From assembly GCF_019635935.1 (NCBI RefSeq), contig NZ_JAHBYN010000001.1, positions 186,001 to 250,000 of the forward strand: a stretch of 64,000 nt of DNA, written 5' to 3'. The position numbers and the translations under genes were made by a program. Below, in pieces: positions 11,178 to 30,748 of the stretch. Position 1 is the first letter of the stretch. Each line of letters starts with the position of its first letter. Below the pieces are notes generated by a model. That model saw only the letters and a program-made list of their open reading frames with translations. It had not been told where the DNA came from and did no database searches. The DNA comes from Parvibaculum sp. (GTDB lineage Bacteria > Pseudomonadota > Alphaproteobacteria > Parvibaculales > Parvibaculaceae).

Positions 11178-11191
11178 GGCTCGAAAGGGCC
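11178..11191. repeat. Left copy of the direct repeat flanking the transposon
   Basis: GGCTCGAAAGGGCC here is identical to bases 30,735-30,748 at the other end of the element. Because the inverted repeats can also be drawn three bases further out (GCC/GGC), the true target duplication could be 14, 12, 10 or 8 bp (8 bp would be TCGAAAGG). The copy carries the loop of the alcohol dehydrogenase terminator; its left stem AAAAGGCGGC is at 11,171-11,180. Confidence 0.85.
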
Positions 11192-11212
11192 AGCCCCTAA
11201 GCTAAATGTTGA
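11192..11212 (+). repeat. Left terminal inverted repeat (IRL)
   Basis: Begins AGCCCCTAAGCTAAATGTTG. Nineteen of 21 positions match the reverse complement of the right end (30,714-30,734); the differences are at positions 9 and 11. The match continues three bases outward (GCC) into what is otherwise the direct repeat. Confidence 0.88.
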
Positions 11213-11222
11213 TTCGACGGAG

Positions 11223-11250
11223 CGCCGACAGTAACCTGTCGGCGTTTCCT
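11223..11250 (+). terminator. Terminator-like hairpin just inside the left end
   Basis: A 9-bp stem CGCCGACAG-TAAC-CTGTCGGCG (11,223-11,244) is followed by TTTCCTGTTTT. It sits between the inverted repeat and the transposase start, where it would stop transcripts entering from the alcohol dehydrogenase gene whose own terminator was broken by the insertion. Confidence 0.6.
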
Positions 11251-11269
11251 GTTTTGAATCGGGGGCTTA

Positions 11270-13054
11270 GTGTCCGAGGGCGAGTCGATACCGGCGGCAA
11301 ATGCCCCGAAGAAATCTTCGAGAGCGCAAACGCGCCGCCTCCCTCGCAATGTAGGGGTGTTTTCGGTCAATTTCTGCCGCAACGCGCAATGCCGGCTGTT
11401 CGGCATTCCGCCGGACCCGTATCGGCGCACCGGCCAAAGCCCGTCTCCCGGAAATCAGCCTCACGGGAAGATTACAGGCGCGGGCGATGACCGCTCGTTC
11501 TTCTGCCCGGCTTGCGGTCTTGCCCACGCGATCAAATCAAATCACGCGATAGCGGAAGAGTATTCCCGCCTCTCGGACCTGTATAGGAGAACAAAACGGG
11601 AAACCTGTCCGAATGCCGTCTGCGGCAATCATCGGCTCCCGATAGGCCTGATGCCGTCCGCCTACAGACTGTTCGGGAAGACCGCGAAGGGCGATGCCCG
11701 CTATCAATGCAAGGCCTGTCGCAAGACCTTTTCCATCGGGCTTCCCACCAGGCGGCACAAGAAGACGGACAAGACGGGCGCCATCATGCGCGGGCTGGTG
11801 AACAAGATGGCCATGAGCCGGCTATGCGAAACAGCGCAGGTCACCTTTCCGCACATCCATTCCAAGATAGATTTCCTCTTCAACCAATGCCTGGCCTTCG
11901 CCGGAGAGCGGGAAGCGCGGCTTCACCAGTGCTTCGACGGCAAGGAGCCCTTCTTCTCGACCGACGCCCAGACAATCCTTGTGAACTGGCCGATCAAGAA
12001 CCGGCGAGGAACAGTCCCGCTCCTTCACATGGCGACCGTTCACAAATCATCGCAGTTCGTGGTGGCGGCAACCATCGATTACGACCCGGATGTCGACCCG
12101 GACGAGCTGGAGAAGGCCATGGACGCCGCGGGCGACTTCGCCAGGCCCCGGTCGATGCGCCGGTTCGCGCGCCTCTGGCCAGCGAGCGAATACCGGGCAT
12201 CGGTCGTGAAACGCTTGCCGCACATCTTCACGAGGGAAGACCTGGCTGCTGGCGGCAAATACGAACTGCCCGGCCGGGGCTCGCGTGTGCGGGGCGACAT
12301 CTTCCACTACGCCCATATGATGCTCGTCAGGAAGCTGGTCGGACGCTCGTATCGCGTTGCGAATTTCTGCGTCGATGCGGAATCGGGACTTGCAAATGCA
12401 ATCGCGGCGCTTTTGGTCGATGAGGTGAAAGCCGGCAAGGTCAATATCGCGGAGATTTCATTCTCGAAAGGCCTGACCAACGATGAGCGGGCGGCACTGG
12501 CGGTTGAAGGCCGCAAGCGCTACCGCGAGGAGCTGAAGCGCTTCGCGGCCGAGATTGCGCAAATCCAGGTCGAGTATCCCGATATCGAAGACGAGGAAGC
12601 GCTTGCGGTCCACATCCTTCGCCTCACCTGCGGCCCGGGTCCGCAACCGGCGCGCGGCAAGATGCTGGCGACAATTGGCCTGGACTGGCCATATCATTCC
12701 AAGGCGGAGCCGGAAAAGACCATCCGGCTGAAAACGGATATCGGCCTGATGGACTGGGACGGACTCGCGAAGTTCATGACGCGCGCAAGCATCCATCCGG
12801 TCGACGCCTATTTCAACCTTGCCCGCCGCCGCATCGCGGGCTTCGAGCGCGGCCTTCCCACGGCCTCGAACAGGCAGCGCATCTGGCACGCCTACAGCTT
12901 CTACAATCCCGAGATGGTGCCCAAGCTTGCGACGATCCTGCGCTTCTATCACAACTACATGCTGCCGCGAGGCAAAGAGAAAGCGACGCCGGCGATGAAG
13001 CTCGGGTTGGCGAGAGGCATTGTCTATGAACGCGATCTGTTCGGTTTTGGATAA
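11270..13054 (+). CDS. DDE-type transposase with tandem zinc ribbons
   Basis: A 594-aa protein. The N-terminus has four Cys pairs forming two repeats of a C-x-N-A-x-C ... C-x2-C zinc ribbon (Cys36/41 with Cys79/82, and Cys113/118 with Cys147/150); the second ends YQCKACRKTFS, like IS1 InsA. The catalytic half offers Asp232 (FFSTDAQT), Asp369 (FCVDAESGL) and Glu548 (FYNPEMV) as a candidate DDE triad, followed by FYHNYM and the TPAMKLGLA motif that ends many DDE transposases. The start is a GTG with GGGGG upstream; the next in-frame Met (residue 128) would delete the first zinc ribbon. Catalytic assignments are by pattern only. Confidence 0.75.
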   Translation: MSEGESIPAANAPKKSSRAQTRRLPRNVGVFSVNFCRNAQCRLFGIPPDPYRRTGQSPSPGNQPHGKITGAGDDRSFFCPACGLAHAIKSNHAIAEEYSRLSDLYRRTKRETCPNAVCGNHRLPIGLMPSAYRLFGKTAKGDARYQCKACRKTFSIGLPTRRHKKTDKTGAIMRGLVNKMAMSRLCETAQVTFPHIHSKIDFLFNQCLAFAGEREARLHQCFDGKEPFFSTDAQTILVNWPIKNRRGTVPLLHMATVHKSSQFVVAATIDYDPDVDPDELEKAMDAAGDFARPRSMRRFARLWPASEYRASVVKRLPHIFTREDLAAGGKYELPGRGSRVRGDIFHYAHMMLVRKLVGRSYRVANFCVDAESGLANAIAALLVDEVKAGKVNIAEISFSKGLTNDERAALAVEGRKRYREELKRFAAEIAQIQVEYPDIEDEEALAVHILRLTCGPGPQPARGKMLATIGLDWPYHSKAEPEKTIRLKTDIGLMDWDGLAKFMTRASIHPVDAYFNLARRRIAGFERGLPTASNRQRIWHAYSFYNPEMVPKLATILRFYHNYMLPRGKEKATPAMKLGLARGIVYERDLFGFG

Positions 13055-13245
13055 CAGGTGCGATAAGCACTACCCGGTTGATCAGGGCTCGGGCACTATG
13101 CTGCCGCCGGTCTATCGCAGGTTTGAATCTTCCATTCTCCTCGCGGTGACAGGTGCTCGATTCACTGTGGGAGGGAATATATCGTGTCGGCGCTGTCGAG
13201 TGTTGGCTATGGGGTGCCTCGCAACCTGGTTTTTATAGGAGAGGA

Positions 13246-13611
13246 TTAGAGGAACTCAAAGACTGCGACGGCGAGAAATACGACACCAGCGCCTCCTTCG
13301 AGCGATCGCGTCGCCCGGTCAATAAGCACAGGCTGTTCCGCAATAAATGTCAGAAGGTCTTGCTGCGCAAAAATACTTGCCCATGCGACGAAGCACAGGG
13401 TCACGACCACGTCGATCATCATGATGGCGGCGAAGGCGAGCCCCGCTCCGGGCGTCTCGCAGGATACCGAATACGTCATGACGAAGAGAGTGAGCGAACA
13501 GGGAACGAGGCCGGCAATCGCTCCGACGGCGATCCTCCTGCCGCAGGGGCAACCGGGTCGAAGCGCAGGTCGCCCGCTACCAGTTCGTTTCAACTTTTTC
13601 CGGCTTCGCAC
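13246..13611 (-). pseudogene. Truncated NicO/RcnA-type nickel/cobalt exporter (C-terminal remnant)
   Basis: About 105 residues resemble the last two to three membrane segments of NicO/RcnA efflux proteins: GAIAGLVPCSLTLFVMTY, then a hydrophobic IMMIDVVVTLCFVAWASI, a loop, and SLEGGAGVVFLAVAVFEFL. The family normally has about 270-370 residues and six segments with a His-rich loop; all of that is missing. The frame opens exactly at the edge of the palindrome at 13,613, and the first 20 residues (RKKLKRTGSGRPALRPG) lack family character. Most likely a gene cut when the cassette beyond the palindrome was acquired. Confidence 0.6.
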
Positions 13612-13612
13612 T

Positions 13613-13657
13613 TAAATCTAAGGCTCCAGACGAAATATGTCCGGAACCGGAGATTTA
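13613..13657. repeat. Imperfect 45-bp palindrome 1 (left border of the metal cassette)
   Basis: Arms of 19 bases (13,613-13,631 and 13,639-13,657) with four mismatches surround a 7-base centre GAAATAT. The right arm GTCCGGAACCGGAGATTTA differs at only two positions from the corresponding part of palindrome 2 (28,258-28,304). Read from the loop, the two palindromes are in opposite orientation. Confidence 0.75.
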
Positions 13658-13936: not shown

Positions 13937-14731
13937 TTAACGGGCCATAAACCAGGACAGATCGGACGTCTTGAGCAATTCTCTGGTCACGCCGCCCAAA
14001 ACGCGCTGGGCAAGGGGACCGCGACTGTAAATTCCGGCGACAATCATGTCCGCGTTCTCCCGCTGTGCATGGCCGATGAGCTCGGCGCAGACGTCTTGCT
14101 CCGAATGCGAAAGGTGCAGGTGGCTTGCCGTCACATCATGCCGGCATAGATGTTCGGCAACCGCTTCGAGTTGTGCAACGGTTGTCTCGTTTCCAACCCC
14201 GACGACGGTCACCTTGTCAGCGCGCTTCAGGATAGGCAATGCGTCATGTAAAGCGCGACGTGCCTGCGGGCACCCTTTCCACGCCACAAGAACGCTGGAA
14301 AAGCGACCTGTCACTGAGGCGGAGCCTAGTCGTAAAACGGGCGCGCCAGATCCTAGCGCGAGATTTGCCGGCTCGGGCGCAACGTTACCATGGCCTTCGG
14401 CTGCGCTCGTGATCAGGAGATCGGCGGTCAAGAGATGCTCACCCAACACTGTGGTCGGATCACCGACTCCCGAACACCATTCAACGTTAATCGACGTATC
14501 CTCGAAAACGCGATCGAAGGCGGCGCGCGTGACGTATAGCGCCTCCTGCATCTGCCTCTCGGCGATGAGCCTGTTCCCGGCAAGCACATCTGCGGCAGTT
14601 GTGACCGGCCAAGCATAAGCGACGACGAACAGCCTTGCGTCAAATGCGATGGCCATTTCACGCGCCAGTTCAAGCGTCCGCGGAATGTCGTTTCTGGGGC
14701 AAGCATCAACGACAATGTCACGAAAACTCAT
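13937..14731 (-). CDS. Universal stress protein (two UspA domains)
   Basis: A 264-aa soluble protein. The N-terminal half (about 1-135) and C-terminal half (about 145-264) are each Usp-like; the second ends with ENADMIVAGIYSRGPLAQRVLGGVTRELL, carrying the G-x2-G-x9-G(S/T)-type nucleotide-binding pattern in a slightly altered form. Usp genes often ride with metal resistance clusters and are thought to help cells survive stress. Start 14,731 has CAGGAG upstream; the open frame extends further upstream without family similarity. Transcribed in the same direction as the P1B-4 ATPase, 147 bases downstream of it. Confidence 0.82.
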   Translation of the reverse strand: MSFRDIVVDACPRNDIPRTLELAREMAIAFDARLFVVAYAWPVTTAADVLAGNRLIAERQMQEALYVTRAAFDRVFEDTSINVEWCSGVGDPTTVLGEHLLTADLLITSAAEGHGNVAPEPANLALGSGAPVLRLGSASVTGRFSSVLVAWKGCPQARRALHDALPILKRADKVTVVGVGNETTVAQLEAVAEHLCRHDVTASHLHLSHSEQDVCAELIGHAQRENADMIVAGIYSRGPLAQRVLGGVTRELLKTSDLSWFMAR

Positions 14732-14878
14732 GGAATTGACTCCTGTGCCAAAGTTTTTCTTGCCCGAAGATTCCCATGTTCCGACACGCATCAGTATGGA
14801 AATCTGTGTAACGGTCCCGCATTCTCGCTTCAGGCTTGGCATGCGTGTGGCCTGTCTCTGATCAGTGGTCGCTCAGCC

Positions 14879-17308
14879 TCATACTTCTTTCCGGTATGCG
14901 AGCAGCCTCAGCGCATTGAACACAACGAGCAGCGTCGATCCCTCATGGACAGCGACAGCGGCACCGATGCCAAGGCCCATGATCGTCAACGGAACTAGCA
15001 GCGCAACCACGCCGAGGCTCACGATCACATTCTGCAGGACCACGGCCCGTGCGGTCCGGCTCAGCCCCACCGCAAAAGGAAGATGAGAGAGATCATCGGC
15101 CATGAGCGCCACGTCCGCTGTCTCCAGGGCAACGTCGGAGCCGGCCGCGCCCATGGCGATGCCGACCGTCGCTGTCGCCATGGCGGGCGCGTCATTGACG
15201 CCATCGCCAACCATGGCGACTTTGCCTTCGGATCGGAGCTTCTTGATCGCCTCGACCTTGTCCTGCGGCATCAGATCGCCCCATGCCTCGTCTATGCCAA
15301 CCTGACCGGCAATGGCCTCGGCAACCTTTTGATGGTCGCCAGATATCATGATCAGCCGCTTGATGCCGAGTTCGTGAAGGCGGGCGAGCGCGATCTTCGC
15401 GGCCTCGCGCGGCGTATCCATCAGCCCGATGGCGCCGATGTCGCGGTCGCCGCGCCGGACCACCATTGTCGTTCGGCCCCCCTCACGCAGCCTCGCGATA
15501 GTCTTCTGCATGGCATCCGACAGTGGCGCGATGCCCTCGGCCCCGAACATTTCCGCCTTGCCGATCAACACAGTTTCGCCACCGACGCGCGCCGACACAC
15601 CACGTCCGGTCAGGCTGTCGAGGCCGTCCGCCTCCGGCACCGGCTTGCCGCCCAGCCGCTCGCGTCCATCCCGCGCAATGGCGCGGGCGAGCGGATGGTC
15701 GCTGAGGCTTTCCACGGCAACCGCGACCGCCAGCAATTCATTTTCGGTCACGCCATGAGCCGGCACGATATCGGTGATCCGCGGGGTTCCGGACGTCAGC
15801 GTGCCGGTCTTGTCGAAGGCAATCGCGGTCAGGGATCCCAGATTTTCCAGCGGAGCGCCGCCCTTGACCAGCACACCGCCGCGCGCGGCCCGCGCGACGC
15901 CGGAGAGAACCGCGCTCGGGGTTGCGATCGCAAGCGCGCAGGGGCTGGCGGCGACCAGAACCGCCATGGCGCGATAAAAGGTGTCGCGGAACGGTTCGTC
16001 GATCACCAGTCCGGCGAACAGTAAAATGACCGCCAACGCCAGTACCACCGGCACGAAGATATGCTCGAATTTGTCGGTGAAGCGCTGCGTCGGCGATTTT
16101 TGGGTCTCGGCCTCGCTGACCATCTTCACGACCTTTGCGAGGGTCGTGTCGGAAGACTTGCGCGTAACTTCGATCTCGATAGCGCCATTGCCGTTGATGG
16201 TGCCCGCGAAGACGCGGTGGGCCGCATTGACCTTGTCGGGATTGGCCCGCGCCGCGTCCGCATCGCTCACCGGCCGCTTGTCCACGGGGATGCTTTCGCC
16301 GGTGACCGGCGCCTGATTGACGCTGCTGACGCCCTTGATCAGGAAACCGTCAGCGGGTAGCCGCAAATCCGGCTTGACGATCACGATGTCGCCGACGGCG
16401 AGATCCTCTACCGGTACCTCTCGCAATTCGCCGTCGCGCCGTACCAGTGCGGTCCTTGGCGCGAGCTTCGCCAGAGCCTCGATTGCCTGCTTCGCGCGTC
16501 CCATGGCGTAGTGCTCAAGGGCATGACCAAGGCTGAACAGGAACAACAGCAGAGCCCCCTCCGCCCAGGCACCAAGGACAGCGGCGCCGGCCGCCGCCAC
16601 CAGCATCAGGGTGTCGATCTCAAACTTCTTCAGGCGCAGGTTCTCTATCGCCTCACGCAAGGTGAAGAGACCGCCAAAGAAATAGGCACCGAGATAACAG
16701 GCGAAGGGTAGCCAGGCCGGGACCGTCAGAAGCTTCCCGATGAGATAGCCCCCGGCGAGCAGAGCACCACAAAGCAAGGAAAAGATCAGCTCGGTGTTCG
16801 CTCCGAATGCGCCGCCTTCGTGATCATGACCGGCATGCTCATCCGCCCGGGAATCCCTTTCCGGCCTTGCGCCGCCGGTTTGCAACTTGTCGAGTTTGCC
16901 CTTGAGTGTCGCCTCGGATGTGGCTGATCTATCGAACTCCACGCGCACGGTGCCGGTGGCGCTCGCTTCAGCCTCTATCACGCCGTCGAGCGTTCTCAGC
17001 CGTTCGGCAATGGACCGCGCTCGCCGCTGGTGCGGAATATCAAGCTGCCAGACCGCGTGCCCATACCGTTCCGAGATCCTGGCGCCCGCGGCGGCGATCA
17101 GGTCGCGGATACGCGGCAGCGGCAGGATGTCAGGATCGTAATGTATGCAAAGCCGCGCCGGTTCGCCGTCCACGCCCGCCACGACATGCGCGTCTTCCAC
17201 TCCTTCCTTCCCCGCAATCTGCTCAATCAGGATCTGGACGCAGGCGTCGGCGGCGGTGTTGACCTCCGGCAACAGGATCGGAATGTCCAGGCGAAGTTTC
17301 TCGGTCAT
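14879..17308 (-). CDS. P1B-4-type heavy-metal ATPase (Co/Zn exporter, SPC motif)
   Basis: An 809-aa inner-membrane pump. The ion-binding motif is SPC (455-457), not CPC, and the last membrane helix carries HEGST (from residue 788); both are signatures of the CoaT/CtpD P1B-4 group, usually Co(II), sometimes Zn(II) or Fe(II). DKTGT is at 499-503, followed by SDHPLA, ISGDH and GDGVNDAPA. The N-terminus has two HMA-like folds (about 7-75 and 85-150) that lack CxxC, then a His patch HAGHDHEGG. The start overlaps the stop of a 37-codon frame by ATGA. Likely detoxifies cobalt or zinc together with the Czc pump upstream. Confidence 0.87.
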   Translation of the reverse strand: MTEKLRLDIPILLPEVNTAADACVQILIEQIAGKEGVEDAHVVAGVDGEPARLCIHYDPDILPLPRIRDLIAAAGARISERYGHAVWQLDIPHQRRARSIAERLRTLDGVIEAEASATGTVRVEFDRSATSEATLKGKLDKLQTGGARPERDSRADEHAGHDHEGGAFGANTELIFSLLCGALLAGGYLIGKLLTVPAWLPFACYLGAYFFGGLFTLREAIENLRLKKFEIDTLMLVAAAGAAVLGAWAEGALLLFLFSLGHALEHYAMGRAKQAIEALAKLAPRTALVRRDGELREVPVEDLAVGDIVIVKPDLRLPADGFLIKGVSSVNQAPVTGESIPVDKRPVSDADAARANPDKVNAAHRVFAGTINGNGAIEIEVTRKSSDTTLAKVVKMVSEAETQKSPTQRFTDKFEHIFVPVVLALAVILLFAGLVIDEPFRDTFYRAMAVLVAASPCALAIATPSAVLSGVARAARGGVLVKGGAPLENLGSLTAIAFDKTGTLTSGTPRITDIVPAHGVTENELLAVAVAVESLSDHPLARAIARDGRERLGGKPVPEADGLDSLTGRGVSARVGGETVLIGKAEMFGAEGIAPLSDAMQKTIARLREGGRTTMVVRRGDRDIGAIGLMDTPREAAKIALARLHELGIKRLIMISGDHQKVAEAIAGQVGIDEAWGDLMPQDKVEAIKKLRSEGKVAMVGDGVNDAPAMATATVGIAMGAAGSDVALETADVALMADDLSHLPFAVGLSRTARAVVLQNVIVSLGVVALLVPLTIMGLGIGAAVAVHEGSTLLVVFNALRLLAYRKEV

Positions 17309-17418
17309 GCTTGCCTATCCTCTTGCCAGCGCGGGTTCGGGTTCTTAGAAGCAGGTCCAATGTGATTCAATCGACCATTGTTGATCCAGACGAGCCAGGC
17401 GATTGATTTTCTTTTCAT
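17305..17418 (-). pseudogene. 37-codon frame, possible IS3-family transposase remnant
   Basis: The frame reads MKRKSIAWLVWINNGRLNHIG then PASKNPNP; the W-NN-RL-IG-P pattern recalls the C-terminal end of IS3-family OrfB transposases (WFNNRRL..IG..P). Its TGA overlaps the ATG of the P1B-4 ATPase (ATGA), so if translated it could couple ribosomes into the pump gene. A GAGG lies 10 bases before its ATG. It may be a leader or only debris; the similarity is short. Confidence 0.35.
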
Positions 17419-17509: not shown

Positions 17510-20500
17510 TCAGGCTGCTCGTTCTTCTTCGTCCCGCGCATGGGCGAGGCGGTAGATCGCGGGCAGCACGAGCAGCGTGAGGATGGTGGAGGACAGGATG
17601 CCGCCGATCACCACCGTGGCGAGCGGGCGCTGCACCTCCGCGCCCGCGCTTGTCGCCAGCGCCATAGGCACGAAGCCGAGCGAGGCAACGAGCGCCGTCA
17701 TCAGCACCGGGCGGAGCCGCGTCATGGCCCCCTGCCGGATCGCTTCATCGAGGGGAAGACCCCGCGCCCGCAGGTTCTTGATGAAGCTGATGATGACGAG
17801 GCCGTTCAGCACCGCGACGCCCGAGAGCGCGATGAAGCCGACGCCCGCCGAGATCGAGAGCGGCATGCCCCGAAGCGCCAGCGCCGCGAGCCCGCCCGTG
17901 AGCGCGAGCGGTACGCCCGAGAAAACGAGCAGCGCGTCCCTCGCCGTGCCGAGGCTCGCGAAGAGCAAAGCGAAGATCAGCACCAGCGCTGCGGGCACGA
18001 CGATGGAAAGCCGCTTCGCCGCCGAGACGAGCTGCTCGAACTGCCCGCCCCATTCGAACCAGTAGCCGGGCGGCAATTGCACCTGCGCCGCCACGGCAGC
18101 CCGCGCCTCGTCCACGAAGGAGCCGAGGTCGCGCTCGCGGATATTGGCCGTCACCGTGATCCGCCGCTTGCCGTTCTCGCGGCTGATCTGGTTCGGTCCG
18201 GGCGCGAGGGCGATCTCCGCCACCTCGCGGAGCGGTACGACGCGCGGCATGCCTTCGCCGAAGGGTGAATAGGAGGCAGGCGCGAAACGGTCCTCCGCTT
18301 CATGTGCCGGCGGTAGCGGAATCGGCAGTTCCCGCAGGCGGTCCATATCCTGCCGGAGTGTCTCAGGCAGGCGCACGAAAACGGGCGTACGCCAATCTCC
18401 TTCATAAAAGGTACCTGCCCGCGCGCCGCCTATCGCCGCCTGCACGACCGTCTGTATCTCCGCGACGGAGAGCCCGAAGCGGGCCGCCACATCGCGCTTC
18501 ACCTCGATGGAGAGGACGGGAAGCCCCTCCACCTGCTCCACCTGCACGTCGGTCGCGCCTTCGATCCGTTGAACGATAGCGGCCACCTCGTTCGCAGAGG
18601 CGAGGAGCTTGTCCATATCGTCGCCGAATATCTTGATGCCGACATCCGAACGGACGCCCGAGATGAGCTCGTTGAAGCGGAGCTCGATGGGCTGCGAGAC
18701 CTCGTAATTCGCTCCCGGTATGGCGGCGAGCTTCTCGTCTATCTCCTGCAGAAGCTCGGCTTTCCGCTTGCGCGGGTTCGGCCAGGAGGAGCGCGGTTCG
18801 ATCATCACATAGGCGTCCGAGATGCTGGGCGGCATAGGGTCGGTTGCAACTTCCGCCGTGCCCGTCCTTGCGAAGACCTCCCGCACTTCGGGAAGCTCGA
18901 TCAGTGCCCTTTCGACCTGTTTCTGCATCTCCACCGATTGCGTAAGGCTCGTGCCCGGCATGCGGAGCACCTGCACCGCAACGTCGCCCTCGTCGAGCCT
19001 CGGGATGAACTCGGTGCCGAAGCGCGTCGCGCCGAGCGCGGCCACGAGCACGAGCGCCGCCGCCGCGATGGCGATTGTCTTCTGACGGCCAAGCGCGAAG
19101 CGAAGTGCTGGCTGGTAACCCTTCTGCGCCCAGCGCATGATGAGGCTCTCCTTCTCCTCCACATCGCCGCGCACGAAAATGGCGATGGCCGCCGGAACGA
19201 AAGTGACCGCCAGCGCCATTGCCCCGAGAAGCGCGAGGACGACCGTGACCGCCATAGGCGTGAACATTTTTCCTTCCACGCCGGTCAATGTGAGGATCGG
19301 CAGATAGACGACCGTGATGATGAAGGAGCCGAACATGGCCGGCGTTATCACCTCGCGCGTCGCGTCCACCACCACAGCGAAGCGTTCGTCGAGGCCGAGT
19401 GTGCGCCCCAGATGCTTCCGTTCTTCGGAAAGACGTCTCAAGCAATTCTCTGTGATGATGACGGCGCCATCCACGATCAGGCCGAAGTCGATGGCGCCGA
19501 GGCTCATCAGGTTGGCGCTGATGCGGTACTCCACCATGCCCGTCACCGCGATCAGCATGGAAAGCGGAATGACAGCGGCGGTGATGAGCGCCGCCCGGAT
19601 ACTTCGCAACAGCATGAAAAGGACAACGATGACGAGCACCGCGCCTTCCACGAGATTGTTACGGACGGTGGCGATGGTCTTCTGGACGAGATCGGTGCGG
19701 TCGTAGAGCGTTTCGATTGTCACGCCGTCGGGCAGGTTTCGCTCGATCTGCTTCAGCTTGCCGCGAACGGCGCTTGCCACTTCGCGGCTGTTCTCGCCCA
19801 TCAGCATCACAGCGGTGCCGAGAACGGTTTCCTCGCCGTCATGCGTCGCCGCGCCGGTGCGGAGCTCCTTGCCGAAGGTCACTTCCGCGACATCGTGGAT
19901 ATAGATTGGCCTGCCATTATGCGTGCCGAGCAGCACCTCGCCGAACTCCGCCGCATCGCCAAGCTGGCCCGGCAGGCGGATCAGATATTGCTCTCCGTTC
20001 CGCTCGATATAGCCCGCGCCCTGATTGACGTTGTTGTCCTCGAGCGCCTTCGCGACATCGGCGAAGGAGAGATTGAAGGAGGTGAGCCGGTAAGGGTCGG
20101 GCACGACATGGATCTGCCGCTCATAACCGCCGATGGCATTTACCTCGACCACGCCCGGAACGGTGCGCAGTTGCGGACGCACCATCCAGTCATGGATCGC
20201 GCGCAGGTCCGAGAGCGTATAGGGCACGCCTTCAGCATTGCGCGCATCCGGAGCGGCCTCCATGCGGTACATGTAGATTTCGCCGAGGCCGGTCGAAACC
20301 GGGCCCATGGCCGTTTCGACGTCGGGCGGCAACTCGCCGGAAACGGCCTGAATACGTTCGCCAATCAACTGCCGCGCGCGGTAGATGTCCGTGCCGTCCA
20401 CGAAGACGACCGTGACCTGCGACAGGCCGTAGCGCGAAAGCGAGCGCGTGTAGTCGAGGCCGGGCAGGCCGCCCATCGCCGTTTCCAGCGGAAAGGTGAT

Positions 20501-20692
20501 GCGCTGCTCCACCTCGACGGGAGAATAGCCGGGCGCGGAGGTGTTGATCTGCACCTGGACATTGGTGATGTCCGGCACGGCGTCGATCGGCAGGCGCGTG
20601 AAATTATAGGCGCCGAAGCCCGCGACGAAGGCGACCGTCAGCAGCACCAGCCAGCGGTGCCTGACGCAGAAGGAGACGATTGCAGGTATCAT
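17510..20692 (-). CDS. czcA: CzcA-type RND heavy-metal efflux transporter
   Basis: A 1060-aa proton-driven RND pump of the heavy-metal efflux family: membrane segment near 14-30, large periplasmic loops, and the helix-IV motif DFGLIVDGAVIITEN with Asp402, Asp408 and Glu415, the proton-relay residues and spacing of the HME1 (Zn/Co/Cd) group rather than CusA. It forms the inner-membrane part of a tripartite system with the products of the two genes before it. Gap to czcB is 11 bases. Full length, intact. Confidence 0.94.
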   Translation of the reverse strand: MIPAIVSFCVRHRWLVLLTVAFVAGFGAYNFTRLPIDAVPDITNVQVQINTSAPGYSPVEVEQRITFPLETAMGGLPGLDYTRSLSRYGLSQVTVVFVDGTDIYRARQLIGERIQAVSGELPPDVETAMGPVSTGLGEIYMYRMEAAPDARNAEGVPYTLSDLRAIHDWMVRPQLRTVPGVVEVNAIGGYERQIHVVPDPYRLTSFNLSFADVAKALEDNNVNQGAGYIERNGEQYLIRLPGQLGDAAEFGEVLLGTHNGRPIYIHDVAEVTFGKELRTGAATHDGEETVLGTAVMLMGENSREVASAVRGKLKQIERNLPDGVTIETLYDRTDLVQKTIATVRNNLVEGAVLVIVVLFMLLRSIRAALITAAVIPLSMLIAVTGMVEYRISANLMSLGAIDFGLIVDGAVIITENCLRRLSEERKHLGRTLGLDERFAVVVDATREVITPAMFGSFIITVVYLPILTLTGVEGKMFTPMAVTVVLALLGAMALAVTFVPAAIAIFVRGDVEEKESLIMRWAQKGYQPALRFALGRQKTIAIAAAALVLVAALGATRFGTEFIPRLDEGDVAVQVLRMPGTSLTQSVEMQKQVERALIELPEVREVFARTGTAEVATDPMPPSISDAYVMIEPRSSWPNPRKRKAELLQEIDEKLAAIPGANYEVSQPIELRFNELISGVRSDVGIKIFGDDMDKLLASANEVAAIVQRIEGATDVQVEQVEGLPVLSIEVKRDVAARFGLSVAEIQTVVQAAIGGARAGTFYEGDWRTPVFVRLPETLRQDMDRLRELPIPLPPAHEAEDRFAPASYSPFGEGMPRVVPLREVAEIALAPGPNQISRENGKRRITVTANIRERDLGSFVDEARAAVAAQVQLPPGYWFEWGGQFEQLVSAAKRLSIVVPAALVLIFALLFASLGTARDALLVFSGVPLALTGGLAALALRGMPLSISAGVGFIALSGVAVLNGLVIISFIKNLRARGLPLDEAIRQGAMTRLRPVLMTALVASLGFVPMALATSAGAEVQRPLATVVIGGILSSTILTLLVLPAIYRLAHARDEEERAA

Positions 20693-20703
20693 GTTTCATC
20701 TCC

Positions 20704-21810
20704 TCAATGCGAATGCGCGGCGGCGTTCTTGCCCGCCTCGGCCTTGAGGAGGAAGGCATTGCCCGCGACATAGGATGCGCCTGCATCGAGCCCTTCGAGG
20801 ATTTCGATGCGGACGCCGTCGCTCCGGCCGGTCTTCACCGGCGCCCGCTCGAAGGAGCCTTCCTCGCCCGGCACATAGACGAATGCCGCCGCACCGTCAT
20901 GGAGGATCGCCTCGCGCTTCACCGTCACCGGCGCCGCTAAGGGTTCCTGCATCACCGAGGCCGTAACAAAAAGTCCGGGCTGAAGATGGCCCTCCGGGTT
21001 CGCGACCGTCGCGCGGGCGAGTACGCTCTGCGTGTCCTGCGCGGCGATAGGCGACACATAGGAAATCACCGCCTCGACCTCGCCGCCGCCATTCTCCGAT
21101 GGAAAAACGACACGCTGTCCCTCGCGGATGAGGCCGGCATCGTGGCGATGAACCTGAAGATCGAGCCAGACGGTCGAAAGATCGGCGACGACCATCAGCG
21201 GATCGTCCGTTCCCGCGAACTGGCCGGGCACGACATTTCCGAGGATGACGCGCCCGGAAACGGAAGCGATGAGCGGATAGGCGCGCAGGCTCTCGTTGCT
21301 TTCAATGGTCGCCAGAATGTCTCCCCGCTCCACGCGGTCGCCAAGGCGCTTGTTCACACCGATCACGATCCCCGGAAAGCGCGGCACGACATGGACAAGC
21401 CTGTCGAGATCGGGCCTGACGATACCGAAAAGATTGAGCGAGGGGCGGAGCATGCCCGGCCCCGCCTCGGCGATTTCCAGCCGTGCGTTGCCGATCTGCG
21501 CAGGCGTCAGCGTTACATGACCATCTTCATGCTCGTCATGCTCGTCGTCATGGCTGTGCCCGTGGCCGCTCTCGTCATGTCCATCCTCTTCGTCGTGGCC
21601 GTGACCGTCATGGGCGTCCTCGCCATGAGCGTCGTGCTCCTCTTCGCTTTCACTCCCATCACGATGGTCGTGATGTTCCTCCACGGCCTTGTCGCCGCCA
21701 TGGTCATGATCGCGGTCGCCCTGTGCCAGGGCGGGCGATATGGCGAGGGCGACAGCCAGGCCCGAAGCGAGCAACCGGCGCGCCAGGATTTCCGTCTTGA
21801 TCGTTTTCAT
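20704..21810 (-). CDS. czcB: CzcB-type periplasmic adaptor (membrane fusion protein)
   Basis: A 368-aa adaptor linking the RND pump to the outer membrane channel. It has a signal peptide (cleavage near ALAQ, residue 30), then a remarkable His/Asp/Glu-rich segment (about 31-98, with HDHGG, EEHHDHRDG, GHGHDEEDGHDE and GHGHSHDDEHDE) likely to bind Zn/Co/Cd, then the hairpin, lipoyl-like (FPGIVIGVNKRLGDRVERGD, SVSGRVILG) and barrel domains. Its start overlaps the stop of czcC by 4 bases. Confidence 0.92.
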   Translation of the reverse strand: MKTIKTEILARRLLASGLAVALAISPALAQGDRDHDHGGDKAVEEHHDHRDGSESEEEHDAHGEDAHDGHGHDEEDGHDESGHGHSHDDEHDEHEDGHVTLTPAQIGNARLEIAEAGPGMLRPSLNLFGIVRPDLDRLVHVVPRFPGIVIGVNKRLGDRVERGDILATIESNESLRAYPLIASVSGRVILGNVVPGQFAGTDDPLMVVADLSTVWLDLQVHRHDAGLIREGQRVVFPSENGGGEVEAVISYVSPIAAQDTQSVLARATVANPEGHLQPGLFVTASVMQEPLAAPVTVKREAILHDGAAAFVYVPGEEGSFERAPVKTGRSDGVRIEILEGLDAGASYVAGNAFLLKAEAGKNAAAHSH

Positions 21811-23096
21811 TGTGCATCTCCTTCGGCCGCTTCTTCCTTGCCGGAAAGGCCGGTCAGAATTTCGATGGAGGCCAGCGCATTACGGCAGGCGAGAAGGGCC
21901 TCCGTTTCCTGCATCCGGCTGTCGGCGCTGGTCTGCAGCGCATCGAGAAGATCGAGTACGCCAAAACGGCCCGCGAGATAGCCTTCGCGGATTGCGGCGG
22001 ATGTTTTTGCCGATGTGGGGACGACCGATCTGCCAAGCCGCTCCGCTTCACGGCAACGGCTGCTGTAGGTCTGATGCGACTGTTGCAATTCGCGGGCGAG
22101 TTCCACCCTCGTTCGCCGCGCATCGAGATCGGCTTGCACGACGCGGCTCGATGCGGCGTCGATATTGCCCTGATTGCGGTCGAAGACGGAGATAGGAATG
22201 GAGACGGAGAAGAGGAACGCGCTTTCGTCCGTTCCTGCGAAATGGCGGGCGCCTGCGCCCAGCGTCACATCCGGATAGGCATTCGACTTTTCCAGGTCGA
22301 AGGCCGCGCGGCGCACACTCACGGTCTGTTGTCCGCCCAGCACCGCCGGATGGCTGTCGAGCATGGCTTCGAGTTCGTCGAGGCCGGGAAGCGGCGTTGC
22401 CGGAACGGCGAAAGCGCCCTCGGCGCGTAACGGACGATAGGCGCTCTCCGACCAGAGGGCGAGCAGTGTTTGCTGTGCCGTGCGCAACTCGGCCTGTTTC
22501 GTCCCCGCCCTGATCTCGGCGAGATCGAGTGCGAGCAATCCGCGATTGAGATCGGCTTCTGAAGAAGCTCCCCGTTCGAAGCGCTGACGCAGCGCCGGCA
22601 CGAGGCCGCGGACCCGCTCCGCCGCGGCCGAAGTCGTTTCCGCTTCTTGCTGTGCGGCAAGCAATCCGTTGAAGGCATGCGTTACCGCCTCGCGCAGGCG
22701 GCGCTCCACAACATCTCTTTCTGCGGCGGCGACCGCTTCCGAAAGGCGGGAGAGACGCTTCCTGTTTTCGCGCTTGCCGCCCGTTTCGATACGCTGCGTG
22801 AGGCCGAGCGTGACATCCGCCTCCTCCGTGCCGCGATAGAGGCCGGAGCCGAGCACATTCTCGACTTCGAGGCCGAGTTCGGGATTGGGCGGAAGCCCCG
22901 CTTGCCGCGCTTCTGCGGTTCGTTCACCGATTGCCTCGAAAGCGATGCGCGCCTGCGTGTTCTGCGACAGCGCGATGGCGATGGCTTCGTCGAGCGTTAC
23001 CGATGCCGTGTCCGACGCGAACACCGGCATCGCGAGTCCCGCCGACAGAAAAATGCCGGACAGGGCTCTCCGCCAAGGGCGGAATGAACCTTTCAT
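21807..23096 (-). CDS. czcC: CzcC-type outer membrane factor
   Basis: A 429-aa TolC-superfamily protein with a signal peptide (MPVFA region, mature start near residue 28) and two outer-membrane efflux repeats rich in long amphipathic helices (LPPNPELGLEVENVLGSG, LAELRTAQQTLLAL, FRVGVLDLLDALQT-like segment near the end). It provides the exit duct for the CzcCBA pump. First of the three structural genes in transcription order and overlapping czcB. Confidence 0.92.
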   Translation of the reverse strand: MKGSFRPWRRALSGIFLSAGLAMPVFASDTASVTLDEAIAIALSQNTQARIAFEAIGERTAEARQAGLPPNPELGLEVENVLGSGLYRGTEEADVTLGLTQRIETGGKRENRKRLSRLSEAVAAAERDVVERRLREAVTHAFNGLLAAQQEAETTSAAAERVRGLVPALRQRFERGASSEADLNRGLLALDLAEIRAGTKQAELRTAQQTLLALWSESAYRPLRAEGAFAVPATPLPGLDELEAMLDSHPAVLGGQQTVSVRRAAFDLEKSNAYPDVTLGAGARHFAGTDESAFLFSVSIPISVFDRNQGNIDAASSRVVQADLDARRTRVELARELQQSHQTYSSRCREAERLGRSVVPTSAKTSAAIREGYLAGRFGVLDLLDALQTSADSRMQETEALLACRNALASIEILTGLSGKEEAAEGDAQ

Positions 23097-23591: not shown

Positions 23592-24002
23592 CTACGAGCC
23601 TGCTGTTGATAGCGACTCGATGATTCTGCAGTCGGCAACTATCCCGCATTCGCACCGATCTATAATCCTGTCGAGTTCACCCTTGAGCGCGATAAGGTCG
23701 CTTATCTTTCTCTCGACCTCGTTTCGACGTTCCCTGGCAACTGCATCGACGGCCGCACAGGACTGGCTGCGGTCGTCGGCGAGCATCAATAGCGTCCTGA
23801 CCTGGTCGAGCGAGAAGCCGAGGTCGCGGGCACGCCTGATGAAGCTCAACCGGTCGAGATGTTCCTGTTCATAGGCACGATAATTGCCGTCGGTGCGCGA
23901 AGGTTCCGGCAAGAGACCGTTCTTCTCATAGAAGCGGATCGTCTCGACTTTGGTGCCCGTCTGCCGCGCCAGATGGCCGATTGTCAGGATTTCCCGGTTC
24001 AT
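23592..24002 (-). CDS. cadR: MerR-family Cd/Zn/Pb-responsive regulator
   Basis: A 136-aa regulator with an N-terminal MerR HTH (LTIGHLARQTGTKVETIRFYEKNGLLPEP), a dimerisation helix, Cys residues at SQSCAAVD and a C-terminal CECGIVADCRIIESL metal loop, the pattern of CadR/ZntR/PbrR regulators. It is divergent from the P1B-2 ATPase gene, and a perfect MerR-type operator lies between them. It probably activates the ATPase gene and its own gene on Cd, Zn or Pb exposure; control of the czc genes is possible but not shown. Confidence 0.88.
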   Translation of the reverse strand: MNREILTIGHLARQTGTKVETIRFYEKNGLLPEPSRTDGNYRAYEQEHLDRLSFIRRARDLGFSLDQVRTLLMLADDRSQSCAAVDAVARERRNEVERKISDLIALKGELDRIIDRCECGIVADCRIIESLSTAGS

Positions 24003-24068: not shown

Positions 24069-26195
24069 ATGGCGGCGACACGCCCCTACAAGCTGTATAT
24101 CGACGGCATGGATTGCGCCGCCTGCGCATTGAAAATCGAAAAGGCGATGTACCACCTGCCCGGCGTGAGCGATGTCGATGTCAGCCATGCAAACGGAACG
24201 CTTGCGCTGCAACTGGATGAGGATCGTACCGCATCGTTCCTCATAGAGGAGAGAGTTCGATCGCTTGGCTACATCCCATTGGCCGGTCATGTGGAGCCGG
24301 AAGCGAGAATACCCCGAAAGCGCGCCAGGGAGCCTTTGTGGAAGGGGCGCAAGAGCCGACTCGTCCTTTTGACCGGCGCCCTCTTCGCACTTGCCTTCGC
24401 GATGGCGCAGATCTTTCCCGAACGGGAACAATGGCTTTATTCGGGCGCCGCGCTTTTAAGCGTCATTCCCTTTGCGAGGCGCGCTGTTGCCGGAGCAATG
24501 TCCGGCTCGCCTTTTACTATCGAGACGCTGATGACGATTGCGGTGCTCGGTGCGGTCGTCATCGGAGAGGCCGAGGAAGCTGCCGTCGTCATTTTCCTGT
24601 TCGCGGTCGGAGAGCTGCTCGAAACCGTCGCGGCCGGCCGGGCGCGAGCGGGCATCAAGGCGCTGATCGACCTCGTGCCGCGCGTGGCGTTTTGCGAGCG
24701 TAACGGCACGGTCGAAAAAGTCGCGGCGGAAGATCTGGTTGTTGGCGATGTCGTCGTAGTGCGGCCCGGCGACCGTGTTCCTTCCGACGGCACGGTGATC
24801 GACGGCATATCGGAGGTCGACGAAGCGCCAGTGACCGGCGAGTCCGTGCAGGCACTCAAGAAAGCAGGTTCGACGGTCTATGCCGGCAGCATCAACGCCA
24901 ATGGCGAGCTGCGTGTCTCGATCGACCGTGTCACGTCCGACAACACGATTACACGCATCATCCACATGGTTGAGAAAGCCCAGGAATCAAAGGCGCCGAC
25001 CGCGCGCCTGATCGACCGCTTCAGCCGGTGGTATACGCCGGGTGCAATGGTTGTGGCGGCTCTGATCGTCATGGTTCCACCACTCGCCTTTGACGGCGAC
25101 TGGATGACGTGGACCTATCGGGGACTTGCCACGCTGCTGATCGCCTGCCCCTGCGCACTCGTCATCTCGACGCCCGCGGCAATCGCCTCGGGCCTTGCCG
25201 CCGGAGCGCGGCGGGGATTGTTGATCAAGGGGGGTGCGGCGCTCGAAACGCTTGGCAAGGTCAGGACCGTTGCTTTCGACAAGACCGGAACGCTGACACG
25301 CGGCTGCCCGCAGGTAACGGATGTCGTGCCGGTCATGGGTAGTGAAGATTCGGTGTTGGCGGTAGCGGCAGCGGTCGAGCGCAACACCAGTCACCCGCTC
25401 GGTCGCGCGATCGTCGAGGTGGCGGTGATGCGCGGGCTGGACATGCCGGCTACCTTCGGCGGCGGCACCGCAACACCTGGCAAGGCAGTGACGGTGCGGC
25501 TAGAAACCGGCTTTGCTTCTGTCGGTTCACCCCGTTATGCTGCGGAGCAGACTGCCATCGCCGCCGAGGTCGCAGAGAAGATCGCGACGCTGGAAAGCGA
25601 GGGCAAGACGGTTGTCGTGCTCCTGTCGGAAAAAGCCGTCGAGGGATTGATTGCACTTCGCGACGAACCGCGTGAAGACGCGATGGAGGGCGTGAAGAGG
25701 CTGACGGAGCGTGGCATCCGTGCCTTGATGCTGACCGGCGACAACCTGCGCACGGCCAACGCCATTGCGGGTCACCTCGGCATGGAGGCGAGTGCCGAGC
25801 TTCTGCCGGACGCCAAGCTCGCCGAAATCAGCCGGCTTAAAGAGGATGGCCCTGTCGTCATGGTGGGAGACGGCATCAATGACGCGCCCGCGCTCGCTGC
25901 GGCCTCGGTCGGCGTTGCCATGGGTGTCGGCACCGATGTCGCGCTGGAGACGGCGGACGCCGCACTCCTGAAAAATCGGGTAACGGGCGTCGCCGATCTC
26001 ATCGACCTGTCGCAGGCGACCCTTGGCAACATCCGGCAGAACATCGCAATCGCGCTGGGATTGAAGGCCGTCTTCCTCGCAACGACTCTTCTCGGCGTCA
26101 CAACGTTGTGGATGGCGATCCTCGCGGATACGGGTGCTACTGTGCTTGTTACAGCCAACGCGCTGCGTCTTCTTGTTCGCGAGCCATCGAAATAG
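24069..26195 (+). CDS. cadA: P1B-2-type Zn/Cd/Pb-exporting ATPase
   Basis: A 708-aa inner-membrane pump. One N-terminal HMA domain carries GMDCAAC (13-19); the transport motif is CPC (360-362, IACPCALVIS), phosphorylation site DKTGT (404-408), then SHPLGRA, MLTGDN and GDGINDAPAL. The last helices contain the Zn-type Lys/Asp environment (ALGLKAVFLATTL, ILADTGATVLVTANALRL) found in ZntA/CadA. Directly controlled by the divergent MerR regulator. Confidence 0.92.
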   Translation: MAATRPYKLYIDGMDCAACALKIEKAMYHLPGVSDVDVSHANGTLALQLDEDRTASFLIEERVRSLGYIPLAGHVEPEARIPRKRAREPLWKGRKSRLVLLTGALFALAFAMAQIFPEREQWLYSGAALLSVIPFARRAVAGAMSGSPFTIETLMTIAVLGAVVIGEAEEAAVVIFLFAVGELLETVAAGRARAGIKALIDLVPRVAFCERNGTVEKVAAEDLVVGDVVVVRPGDRVPSDGTVIDGISEVDEAPVTGESVQALKKAGSTVYAGSINANGELRVSIDRVTSDNTITRIIHMVEKAQESKAPTARLIDRFSRWYTPGAMVVAALIVMVPPLAFDGDWMTWTYRGLATLLIACPCALVISTPAAIASGLAAGARRGLLIKGGAALETLGKVRTVAFDKTGTLTRGCPQVTDVVPVMGSEDSVLAVAAAVERNTSHPLGRAIVEVAVMRGLDMPATFGGGTATPGKAVTVRLETGFASVGSPRYAAEQTAIAAEVAEKIATLESEGKTVVVLLSEKAVEGLIALRDEPREDAMEGVKRLTERGIRALMLTGDNLRTANAIAGHLGMEASAELLPDAKLAEISRLKEDGPVVMVGDGINDAPALAAASVGVAMGVGTDVALETADAALLKNRVTGVADLIDLSQATLGNIRQNIAIALGLKAVFLATTLLGVTTLWMAILADTGATVLVTANALRLLVREPSK

Positions 26196-26264
26196 GTGAG
26201 TTAGGAGCTGTGGAAGCCCAGGCGTCCTGCAAGAGACGACGTGCAACAACAGGAAGACATGAGG

Positions 26265-27404
26265 ATGATACCGGAGGTTGTGCATCCCGATGATGGCCGA
26301 ACGGCGGAGCTTTGGGCGAAGACGTTCGATGTGCTGGTCATCGGTGCCGGGCAGGCGGGCCTCGCCGCGGGGTATCGTCTTGCCGGAACGGGATGCTCCT
26401 TTCTGATTGTAGATCGCCAAGCCCGTATCGGAGACAGCTGGCGCGGACGCTACGATTCACTCACCCTGTTTACGCCACGGGCTTTCAGTATGCTCCCGGG
26501 GCTCTCTCTCGATGGTGCGCCGGATGGCTATCCAACACGCGATGAGTTCGCCGACTATCTTGAGACCTATGCAGATTATTTTGATCTGCCCGTCCTTTCC
26601 GGCAACGGGGTGAAACAACTCCGGTTACGGGCCGGGCGCTTCGAGGCAACGCTCGACGATGGACGGAAAATCGCAGCCAGAGCCGTGATTGTCGCTACGG
26701 GTGCCTTCCAGAAGTCCCGGATTCCGCCGGTTGCCGCCGATTTCGACAACACCGTCAAGCAACTGACACCGGACACCTATCGCAATCCCGGTGATGTTCC
26801 GCGAGGCGCTGTCCTGGTGGCTGGAGACGGAGCGTCGGGGCGCGATATTGCCGCCGAGCTATCGGTGACCCACAATGTCGCGCTTGCAACGGGCCGGAGA
26901 CGCCGGCTGTTTCCCGAACGCATCCTCGGCAAAAGCACATGGTGGTGGTTGAGGATTCTCGGATTGATGAAAGCGAAACCGGGCTCGCTTGCGGGCCGCC
27001 TGATGCGCCGCACCGACCCCTTCCCCGACCGGGGGCGTAGTCTCGACGATTTACGGGTCCTGGGTGTCGCGGTTGTCCCCCGCCTCGTCGGTGCCGATGG
27101 CCGGACCGCATTCTTTGCCGATGGATCGACGCGGGAGTTGAACTGTGTCATCTGGTGTGCCGGCTATCATGGCGACAACGCATGGCTTGATATCCCCGGC
27201 ACGAAGGATCCACACGGCCGCTTCCAGCACGAAGGCGGACGAACCTCCGTCCCCGGTCTTTTTCATCTTGGCTTGCCCTGGCAACGCAACCGTGCCTCTG
27301 CGCTCGTGATGGGAATAGAAGAAGACGCGGCGGAAATCGTCGCATTCGTTCGAGACTATCTGAATGTACCTATGACCCAAACTCAGGTTATTCGACCGGG
27401 TTGA
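26265..27404 (+). CDS. czcO: CzcO-like FAD/NAD(P)-dependent oxidoreductase
   Basis: A 379-aa flavin monooxygenase-like protein. FAD-binding VIGAGQAGLAAGYRL lies near the start, an ATG-like VATGAFQ segment in the middle, and the NAD(P) Rossmann motif VAGDGASGRDIAAEL further on, where GxGxSG appears as GDGASG. Proteins of this family (CzcO) often accompany Czc and arsenic resistance genes; their reaction is unclear. ATG 26,265 has AGGAAG eight bases upstream; GTG 26,241 is an alternative start. It lies 69 bases after cadA and is probably co-transcribed. Confidence 0.78.
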   Translation: MIPEVVHPDDGRTAELWAKTFDVLVIGAGQAGLAAGYRLAGTGCSFLIVDRQARIGDSWRGRYDSLTLFTPRAFSMLPGLSLDGAPDGYPTRDEFADYLETYADYFDLPVLSGNGVKQLRLRAGRFEATLDDGRKIAARAVIVATGAFQKSRIPPVAADFDNTVKQLTPDTYRNPGDVPRGAVLVAGDGASGRDIAAELSVTHNVALATGRRRRLFPERILGKSTWWWLRILGLMKAKPGSLAGRLMRRTDPFPDRGRSLDDLRVLGVAVVPRLVGADGRTAFFADGSTRELNCVIWCAGYHGDNAWLDIPGTKDPHGRFQHEGGRTSVPGLFHLGLPWQRNRASALVMGIEEDAAEIVAFVRDYLNVPMTQTQVIRPG

Positions 27405-29012: not shown

Positions 29013-29429
29013 TCAATCCTTGGGCAAGGCGTAGCGCAGCACCCGAAGCTCAATCCCGTCCTCCAGAAAGATTTCAAGAACCTGGTTGATGAGATCATCG
29101 TCGGCACTGAGTTCGACCAGCGCCTGCTCGAACAGCTCGATGTGCATGTCGAGATTCATGCTGGGTGGGCCGTTGAGACAGATCAACCCGGCATGGATGG
29201 CGACGTCGGCATACTGGCCCTTGGTGCCTGGCTTATCTTTCGGACCCCGGAAATCCACCGAATTCCTGGTGACGAACGTCCAGTCTCCGCCGAGAATGAT
29301 CGGCTTCAGCTCCCAGTCTTTCAGGCCGGCGAGCTTCATCCAGACAACGTGGCTGGTCTCGTTATATCCTTTTTTCAATGCCAGCTTCGCCAGTTCGGGA
29401 CTTAGGCACTCGTCGATCAGAAACTTCAT
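29013..29429 (-). CDS. DUF5615-type PIN-like toxin
   Basis: A 138-aa protein starting MKFLIDECLSPELAKLALKKGYNETSHVVW, the classical DUF5615/Mut7-C-like PIN fold opening with the acidic FLIDECL. A second acidic site is VTRNSVDFRG. Such proteins are the toxin, probably an RNase, of toxin-antitoxin pairs whose antitoxin has a DUF433 domain, which is exactly the preceding gene. The start overlaps the antitoxin stop by ATGA. The C-terminal extension (about 95-138, ELFEQALVELSADDDLINQVLEI) is acidic. Confidence 0.75.
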   Translation of the reverse strand: MKFLIDECLSPELAKLALKKGYNETSHVVWMKLAGLKDWELKPIILGGDWTFVTRNSVDFRGPKDKPGTKGQYADVAIHAGLICLNGPPSMNLDMHIELFEQALVELSADDDLINQVLEIFLEDGIELRVLRYALPKD

Positions 29430-30079
29430 CCCGCCTTCCTGGCTCGAGGAATGCGGCGATCCGTGATAATGACCGAGCCTTCGCAAAGATCGGCGGGAGC
29501 GCGTGGGCGACCGCGCAGCGGGTTTGCCTCCGCGTAGATTGTGGCAAGCCTGACTTTTTCGGTATCTAGGCTGGGCCAGGTCGCGAGGATGCGCTCCGTC
29601 GAATGGCCGGCGGCTACGGATGCCGCGACATCATAGACCGGAACACGGGTGCCCCGAATGACGGGTGTGCCGCCGAGAATGTCGGGTGAGGTCGTGACCA
29701 TCTCCCGCGCGGTGGCGAGATCGTCCAGCCGCTCGCTCGCGCCCTTCATGAAGGGCAGCAGGTCGATGGTCAGGAAATCGTCGCGGACGGTCCAATCCTC
29801 ACGCAACAGCGCAGCCCAAGGCAGGGCGCGGGACCGCGCAAGCCGAGGCTCTGCGGTCCTGATGGCCGACAGGCGCTCTTCCGAGGTCAGGCGCCGGGCG
29901 CTCGCGAAATAGAAGGTGATGAGCGAACAGGCGCCGGCCAGGACGTAACGGCCATTGTCGAACGAGACGAAGGCGTCCGGCAGGATGTGTTCGTCGAGAG
30001 CACGATTGACGTCGCGCAGGCTCACGCGCGAGACAACGGCGACCTCGCTGACCTTCAGCATTTCCGCGACTGCGGGCAT
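29426..30079 (-). CDS. DUF433-domain antitoxin
   Basis: A 217-aa protein, longer than a minimal DUF433 antitoxin. The N-terminal 80 residues (VSRVSLRDVNRALDEHILPDAFV) resemble a DNA-binding or dimerisation module. The C-terminal DUF433 domain is clear: SPDILGGTPVIRGTRVPVYDVAASVAAGHSTERILATWPSL, abridged here to its conserved parts. A strong AGGAGG precedes the ATG, and a dyad overlaps the -10 box, suggesting autorepression. Likely stabilises the transposon in its host. Confidence 0.77.
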   Translation of the reverse strand: MPAVAEMLKVSEVAVVSRVSLRDVNRALDEHILPDAFVSFDNGRYVLAGACSLITFYFASARRLTSEERLSAIRTAEPRLARSRALPWAALLREDWTVRDDFLTIDLLPFMKGASERLDDLATAREMVTTSPDILGGTPVIRGTRVPVYDVAASVAAGHSTERILATWPSLDTEKVRLATIYAEANPLRGRPRAPADLCEGSVIITDRRIPRARKAG

Positions 30080-30713: not shown

Positions 30714-30734
30714 TCAACATTTATCATAGGGGCT
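30714..30734 (-). repeat. Right terminal inverted repeat (IRR)
   Basis: On the minus strand it begins AGCCCCTATGATAAATGTTG and matches the left end at 19 of 21 positions. It abuts the direct repeat directly. Confidence 0.88.
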
Positions 30735-30748
30735 GGCTCGAAAGGGCC
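30735..30748. repeat. Right copy of the direct repeat flanking the transposon
   Basis: GGCTCGAAAGGGCC, identical to 11,178-11,191. It is followed by GCCTTTTCTTTTT, the right arm and T-tract of the original alcohol dehydrogenase terminator. With the element end (GGGGCTGGC) this copy can still form a weaker stem with one bulged base. Confidence 0.85.

Follow-up and report, generated by a model that had tools for sequence, protein, structure and literature searches.

The open reading frame at positions 11270-13054 of the 64,000-nucleotide stretch of Parvibaculum DNA analysed here (the window) encodes a 594-residue protein which is, by sequence comparison, the sole recognised transposase of a 19.5-kb element. 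The whole transposon spans 11190-30736 (19,547 bp), and this open reading frame is one gene within it. The best explanation of our observations, and one that we consider very probable, is that this is a metal-efflux transposon belonging to an unnamed family whose members insert symmetrically about terminator hairpins. Proteins of this family, labelled "hypothetical protein" or "insertion element protein" by NCBI, here gain both an identity and a target rule. The analysis also joins the family to Tn7491, by which trimethoprim resistance is spread in enterococci, staphylococci and Listeria.

Ends and target duplication of the element

An earlier sequence-only reading had taken the 594-residue protein for a transposase, which is borne out by terminal repeats, a target duplication and the location of homologues at the ends of similar elements. 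The terminal inverted repeats match at 21 of 23 positions (Table 1). The same reading had linked the double zinc ribbon of the protein to recognition of long ends, but a repeat of 23 bp is of ordinary length. Homology to four other Parvibaculum genomes begins within a few bases of 11190, although in one of these (G002) it starts approximately 20 bp earlier.

Ends and duplications of 8-11 bp were located de novo for 17 proteobacterial relatives, by searching for inverted repeats together with direct repeats of 8-11 bp around the homologues; secondary structure was ignored in this search. These relatives measure 1.3-5.2 kb, their target duplications are mostly 9-10 bp in length and the element ends start with CCAGCC or CAAGCC in most cases. 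A single open reading frame of 577-650 residues is found in elements of 1.9-19.5 kb. For example, a Rhizobium phaseoli plasmid carries a single-gene element of 1,886 bp, Roseovarius and Histidinibacterium possess elements of 1.9 kb, and elements of 3 kb and 3-5 kb are present in Parvibaculum and outside the class, respectively. The family ranges over the alpha- and gammaproteobacteria and extends more distantly to the Firmicutes, where it is represented by Tn7491. In viral contigs no relative was found apart from one copy of Tn7491.

Table 1. Features of the transposon, its flanks and its cargo genes (positions in the window)
Feature	Position	Strand	Basis or remark
Left target duplication, 10 bp, CTCGAAAGGG (GAAA loop plus 3 bp of stem per side)	11180..11189		Identical to 30737-30746
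Left terminal inverted repeat, CCAGCCCCTAAGCTAAATGTTGA	11190..11212	+	21/23 match to right end
Predicted inward-facing intrinsic terminator inside left end, core CGCCGACAG-TAAC-CTGTCGGCG	11217..11250	+	Terminator scan
Transposase	11270..13054	+	Homologues sit at ends of elements bounded by inverted repeats and 9-10-bp duplications
Zinc ribbon 1 (C36/C41/C79/C82)	11375..11515	+	Invariant in 20 relatives
Zinc ribbon 2, InsA/IS1595-like (C113/C118/C147/C150)	11606..11719	+	NCBIfam NF050000, E 2.7e-5; conservation
Putative helix-turn-helix after ribbon 2	11765..11875	+	NCBIfam transpos_IS1 match, residues 136-200; profile alignment
Codon of D232, candidate catalytic acid 1	11963..11965	+	Invariant
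Codon of D369, candidate catalytic acid 2	12374..12376	+	Invariant
Codon of D512, candidate catalytic acid 3	12803..12805	+	D in 19/20; weak IS1-like alignment
Universal stress protein	13937..14842	-	Pfam Usp
P-type metal ATPase	14879..17308	-	Pfam E1-E2_ATPase
RND efflux pump (CzcA/CusA type)	17510..20692	-	Pfam ACR_tran
CusB/HlyD adaptor	20704..21810	-	Pfam HlyD_D23
Outer membrane efflux protein	21807..23096	-	Pfam OEP
MerR-type regulator	23592..24002	-	Pfam MerR_1
HMA-domain P-type metal ATPase	24069..26195	+	Pfam HMA, E1-E2_ATPase
FAD/NAD oxidoreductase	26241..27404	+	Pfam Pyr_redox_3
DUF433 protein	29426..30079	-	Pfam DUF433
Right terminal inverted repeat (reverse complement CCAGCCCCTATGATAAATGTTGA)	30714..30736	-	Also the end of the G015 copy
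Right target duplication, 10 bp	30737..30746		Matches left copy

Insertion into intrinsic terminators

When the window flanks are spliced they read GAAAAGGCGGCTCGAAAGGGCCGCCTTTTC, a textbook intrinsic terminator by prediction, located just past an adh gene (10066-11151). The centre of the left duplication coincides with the centre of the terminator loop (offset 0.0). The adh terminator is unbroken at the empty site in relatives without the element, one of which (G022) carries it intact at the same place as AAAGGCGGCTCGAATGAGCCGCCTTTTC.

Terminators were called from sequence, using one definition for all reconstructed empty sites, and 17 of 21 such sites lie inside predicted terminators compared with 0.83 expected. 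Together with 11 further distinct Tn7491 sites (from Enterococcus, Listeria and Lactococcus plasmids) these make up a set of 32 distinct insertion sites, of which 25 fall in predicted intrinsic-terminator hairpins against an expectation of 2.67 from intergenic DNA, i.e. DNA outside long open reading frames (P 2e-23). The midpoint of the duplication lies no more than 0.5 bp from the loop centre in 19 of these 25 terminator sites (P 2e-17). For Tn7491 alone, terminator loops account for 10 of 13 distinct sites. A test that is free of the terminator definition compared the complementarity of the eight bases on each side of the duplication with a control in which one flank was slid away; this gave values of 0.55 versus 0.27 for the Proteobacteria and 0.61 versus 0.25 for Tn7491.

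The preference of the family for predicted terminators is strong, but not absolute. No terminator is called at seven of the 32 sites (those in G015, R. phaseoli, G002b and G740, and three Tn7491 sites), and at four of the called sites the loop centre is missed by 2.5-9 bp, the most distant of these (G426b, 9 bp) probably being a chance call. Two of the Tn7491 sites (L120 and L121) represent homologous places in related enterococcal plasmids and share ancestry; in each plasmid Tn7491 occupies the homologous terminator with its own matching duplication (CTATGAAAG and CTATAAAAG, respectively). It is possible that this terminator is a hot spot for independent insertions.

The open-access literature searched contained no previous description of insertion at terminators by members of this family, and as far as the searchable literature shows, the target rule that we propose for Tn7491 has not been noted before. 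The publication on this transposon makes no mention of terminators or hairpins, but describes a new copy located between the convergent genes csbB and saeS (PMC10763498). The presence of a terminator in the interval between these two genes is to be expected.

Terminators carried by the elements and a model for insertion

Inward-facing terminators are predicted just inside the transposase end of 17 of 20 elements and at the other end of 12 of 20, whereas element interiors lead to an expectation of 1.8 terminators per end. The terminator of the window element (11217-11250) precedes the GTG codon of the transposase, and a DNA fold z score of -3.2 was obtained for the region 11180-11285.

In the mechanism that we propose, the zinc-ribbon and helix-turn-helix region probably binds the 23-bp ends, a role that we infer for the ribbons, and a triad consisting of D232, D369 and probably D512 would join these ends to the target DNA. 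The two cuts, 9-10 bp apart on opposite strands, would be placed symmetrically around the dyad in the hairpin of an intrinsic terminator, as expected of a symmetric pair of active sites acting on a palindromic target. The duplicated bases would then correspond to the hairpin loop together with the end of the stem next to it, leaving the host terminator split in two. One terminator may therefore be swapped for another on insertion: the benefit of the carried terminators, as we infer it, would be that the element's own inward-facing terminator, often present at both ends, can replace the destroyed one and restore termination of the split host gene, and also shields the element from incoming host transcription that would drive the transposase.

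The target may be read as a duplex dyad, as an extruded hairpin or as a site marked by transcription. We regard it as roughly an even chance that these proteins constitute a separate transposase superfamily, in which the strand-transfer complex recognises the terminator dyad, cuts around the loop and replaces the host terminator, the dyad possibly being met as an extruded hairpin or during transcription. Slightly less than even weight is given to the alternative that a plain dyad-symmetric duplex or stem is read, with no role for hairpin extrusion or termination, and that terminators are simply the commonest sequences of this type. A transposase pair holding two ends acts with two-fold symmetry, for which a symmetric target is natural, and partial dyads remain at some of the non-terminator sites; however, Tn7491 sites include AT-rich stems without a common sequence, and both loops and stems vary from site to site. 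The target rule predicts the landing places of such elements, and the idea of a transposase that finds structure instead of sequence becomes directly testable.

Conserved features of the transposase

The transposase gene has an open frame with a GTG start. Its eight cysteines had been read as two C-x4-C...C-x2-C ribbons, and these are real: C36-x4-C41...C79-x2-C82 forms the first and C113-x4-C118...C147-x2-C150 the second. Conservation was assessed across 20 members of the family, which share 21-85% identity with the window transposase. Seven of the eight cysteines (C36, C41, C79, C82, C118, C147 and C150) are invariant in this set and therefore the ribbon pattern is conserved and not due to chance; C113 is absent solely from the Tn7491 protein. 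The description of both ribbons as InsA-type stands for the second, which is matched by NCBIfam models, while the pair as such is present as tandem Cys4 motifs. The IS1_IS1595_Zn model is matched by 20/20 members and transpos_IS1 by 19/20, below its cut-off in the latter case, and profile alignment (hhalign) of the helix-turn-helix region with IS1-like proteins gives an E value of 2.5e-5. In the window transposase the NCBIfam matches for the ribbon and helix-turn-helix lie at residues 135-200. No Pfam match above cut-off was obtained for the transposase. A search of solved structures returned eukaryotic C2H2 fingers alone, matching ribbon 2, which we judged to be chance hits. The double ribbon, previously considered uncommon, is the norm in this transposase family and is retained even in an apparently catalytically broken chromosomal homologue. 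The TPAMKLGLA tail is likewise kept across the family.

The proposal that D232 and D369 form the candidate aspartate pair is well supported, as both are invariant in the 20 members, and the spacing of 136 residues between them was confirmed. Glu548 had been put forward as the third acidic residue, but column 548 varies freely across the family (E, S, I, A, Y, K, D and V) and it is therefore very unlikely to be catalytic. Position 512 is D in 19/20 members and N in Tn7491, lies within a conserved VDxYFxxxRR motif, and falls opposite the catalytic Glu of IS1-like proteins in a weak profile alignment (probability 51%, a lead only). D512 is thus probably a better third acid than Glu548, and we suggest that the acidic triad of D232, D369 and probably D512 catalyses joining. 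AlphaFold models of the full protein and then of the catalytic half, each built with seven input sequences, had pLDDT values of 39.4 and 38.6, which are too low for use. The order of strands and helices in the second model would fit an RNase H fold, with D232 just before the first strand, D369 just after the fourth and a late helix beginning at D512, but a model with a pLDDT of about 39 provides no evidence at such confidence. Conservation and the weak profile alignment are instead the basis on which an RNase H fold is suggested for the transposase.

Relationship to known elements

Tn7491 is the dfrG transposon first seen inside Tn6198, and its intragenomic movement has been reported (PMC10763498). 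On the basis of homology it is a distant member of the family: the Gram-positive relative beside dfrG shows 22% identity over 94% of the length of the window transposase (tblastn E 9e-20), and like the other members Tn7491 has terminator-loop targets and its own predicted terminator at the left end. The ends and 9-bp duplication that we found independently agree with the published transposon, whose repeat begins TAAGTAGTTCAGTTTTGGAG (PMC10763498). In contrast to the window element, Tn7491 has a different terminal repeat and carries dfrG rather than metal-efflux genes, and its transposase lacks one ribbon cysteine and has N in place of D512.

The family shares with IS1 the second zinc ribbon, the helix-turn-helix and a similar length of duplication (8-10 bp). 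It is unlikely, however, that the window transposase is a strict member of the IS1 family with a duplicated ribbon. Matches to IS1_IS1595_Zn and transpos_IS1 cover ribbon 2 and the helix-turn-helix, the 9-10-bp duplications would be compatible with such membership, and there is a weak C-terminal profile match. Nevertheless the window transposase scores 22.6 bits against a transpos_IS1 cut-off of 100, the matches fall outside the catalytic half, which the IS1 model does not recognise, and the terminal sequence is different. Among the family members listed, matches are likewise confined to the surroundings of ribbon 2 and the helix-turn-helix. IS1 possesses one ribbon, an element of ~0.8 kb and a transposase of ~230 residues, whereas the proteins of this family are encoded by a single reading frame of ~600 residues and are 2-3 times longer. 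Four true IS1 copies (G418), which represent a small control, have 8-bp duplications at sites without hairpins or such extended pairing, so that no hairpin targeting is seen in the few copies tested. The sequence relationship of the family to IS1 is only via the second ribbon and the helix-turn-helix.

Hairpin insertion is shared with IS1272/TnSha1 (IS1182 family), for which several of the targets are transcription terminators (PMC4923244). The cuts made by IS1272 are blunt, and part of the stem is lost on insertion without any target duplication being generated (PMC4923244), whereas the window family duplicates 9-10 bp around the centre of the loop. Profile scans of the family yielded no IS1182-type match.

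Retention and mobility of the elements

Near-random insertion, followed by selection that retains harmless landings such as terminators after genes, is a very unlikely origin of the observed target sites. Landings downstream of genes are often neutral, and just 22 of the 32 sites are intergenic by a crude call based on open reading frames. However, the null was already drawn from intergenic DNA and P was still 2e-23, and selection for safe regions cannot account for 19 of 25 sites in which the duplication midpoint is no more than 0.5 bp away from the centre of the loop. Because of this exact centring we reject safe-place selection as the whole explanation. Insertion directed to terminators suggests how an insertion of 19.5 kb could be harmless, since a terminator is entered, the gene is spared and a terminator is supplied. 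If the separate-superfamily reading set out above is true, terminators would offer cargo transposons of Proteobacteria and Firmicutes alike a general safe harbour, the clinical dfrG element included.

It is extremely unlikely that the window element is a degenerate or domesticated remnant with a transposase that no longer works. This might be imagined from its single copy in the window genome and from the related, seemingly domesticated protein of a Vibrio-like genus, from which D232 and D369 have disappeared, but the frame is open, every invariant residue is present, the ends are intact, the target duplications are identical and near-identical copies occupy other places in G002 and G015. These two Parvibaculum genomes have left flanks unlike those of the window, and in all three genomes the near-identical transposases (100% amino acid identity) are found beside different left flanks. 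The G015 copy comprises the full 19,547-bp element, with similarity ending at 30736 and its own 10-bp duplication (ACCCAGGAGG) on both sides. At window position 17410 the G002 copy (G002:C1, L034-L035) contains an extra segment of ~1.1 kb; it diverges past 24308, indicating that its right part differs or was exchanged. A second, truncated relative in G015 (L046, G015:C1:58000-75000) encodes a transposase whose C-terminal part is 88% identical; its right end is intact, and over 6 kb its metal-efflux cargo resembles that of the window element, with 89% DNA identity.

The homologue from the Vibrio-like genus is found in eight genomes of this one genus (L079-L086, e.g. L083:8248-9795) and is 487-515 residues long. 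It occurs in conserved synteny adjoining purine nucleoside phosphorylase (deoD-like) and GGDEF-type genes. Both ribbons are retained. Conservation does not extend to D232, however, and Pro replaces D369 in 8/8 cases; apparently this protein is a domesticated, catalytically dead relative.

Cargo genes

The cargo of the window element, identified by Pfam throughout (Table 1), is mainly concerned with metal efflux and includes two P-type metal ATPases and one CusABC-like efflux system among others. The DUF433 gene and a neighbouring open reading frame (29013-29486) could represent a toxin-antitoxin pair. Elsewhere in the family, contig 42 of G023 (L040:1-4444) corresponds almost exactly to one 4.44-kb element from end to end, whose cargo consists of one gene resembling those for DNA cytosine methyltransferases and another open reading frame of 275 residues. 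That this contig stops at the element ends suggests either the presence of several copies or a circular form.
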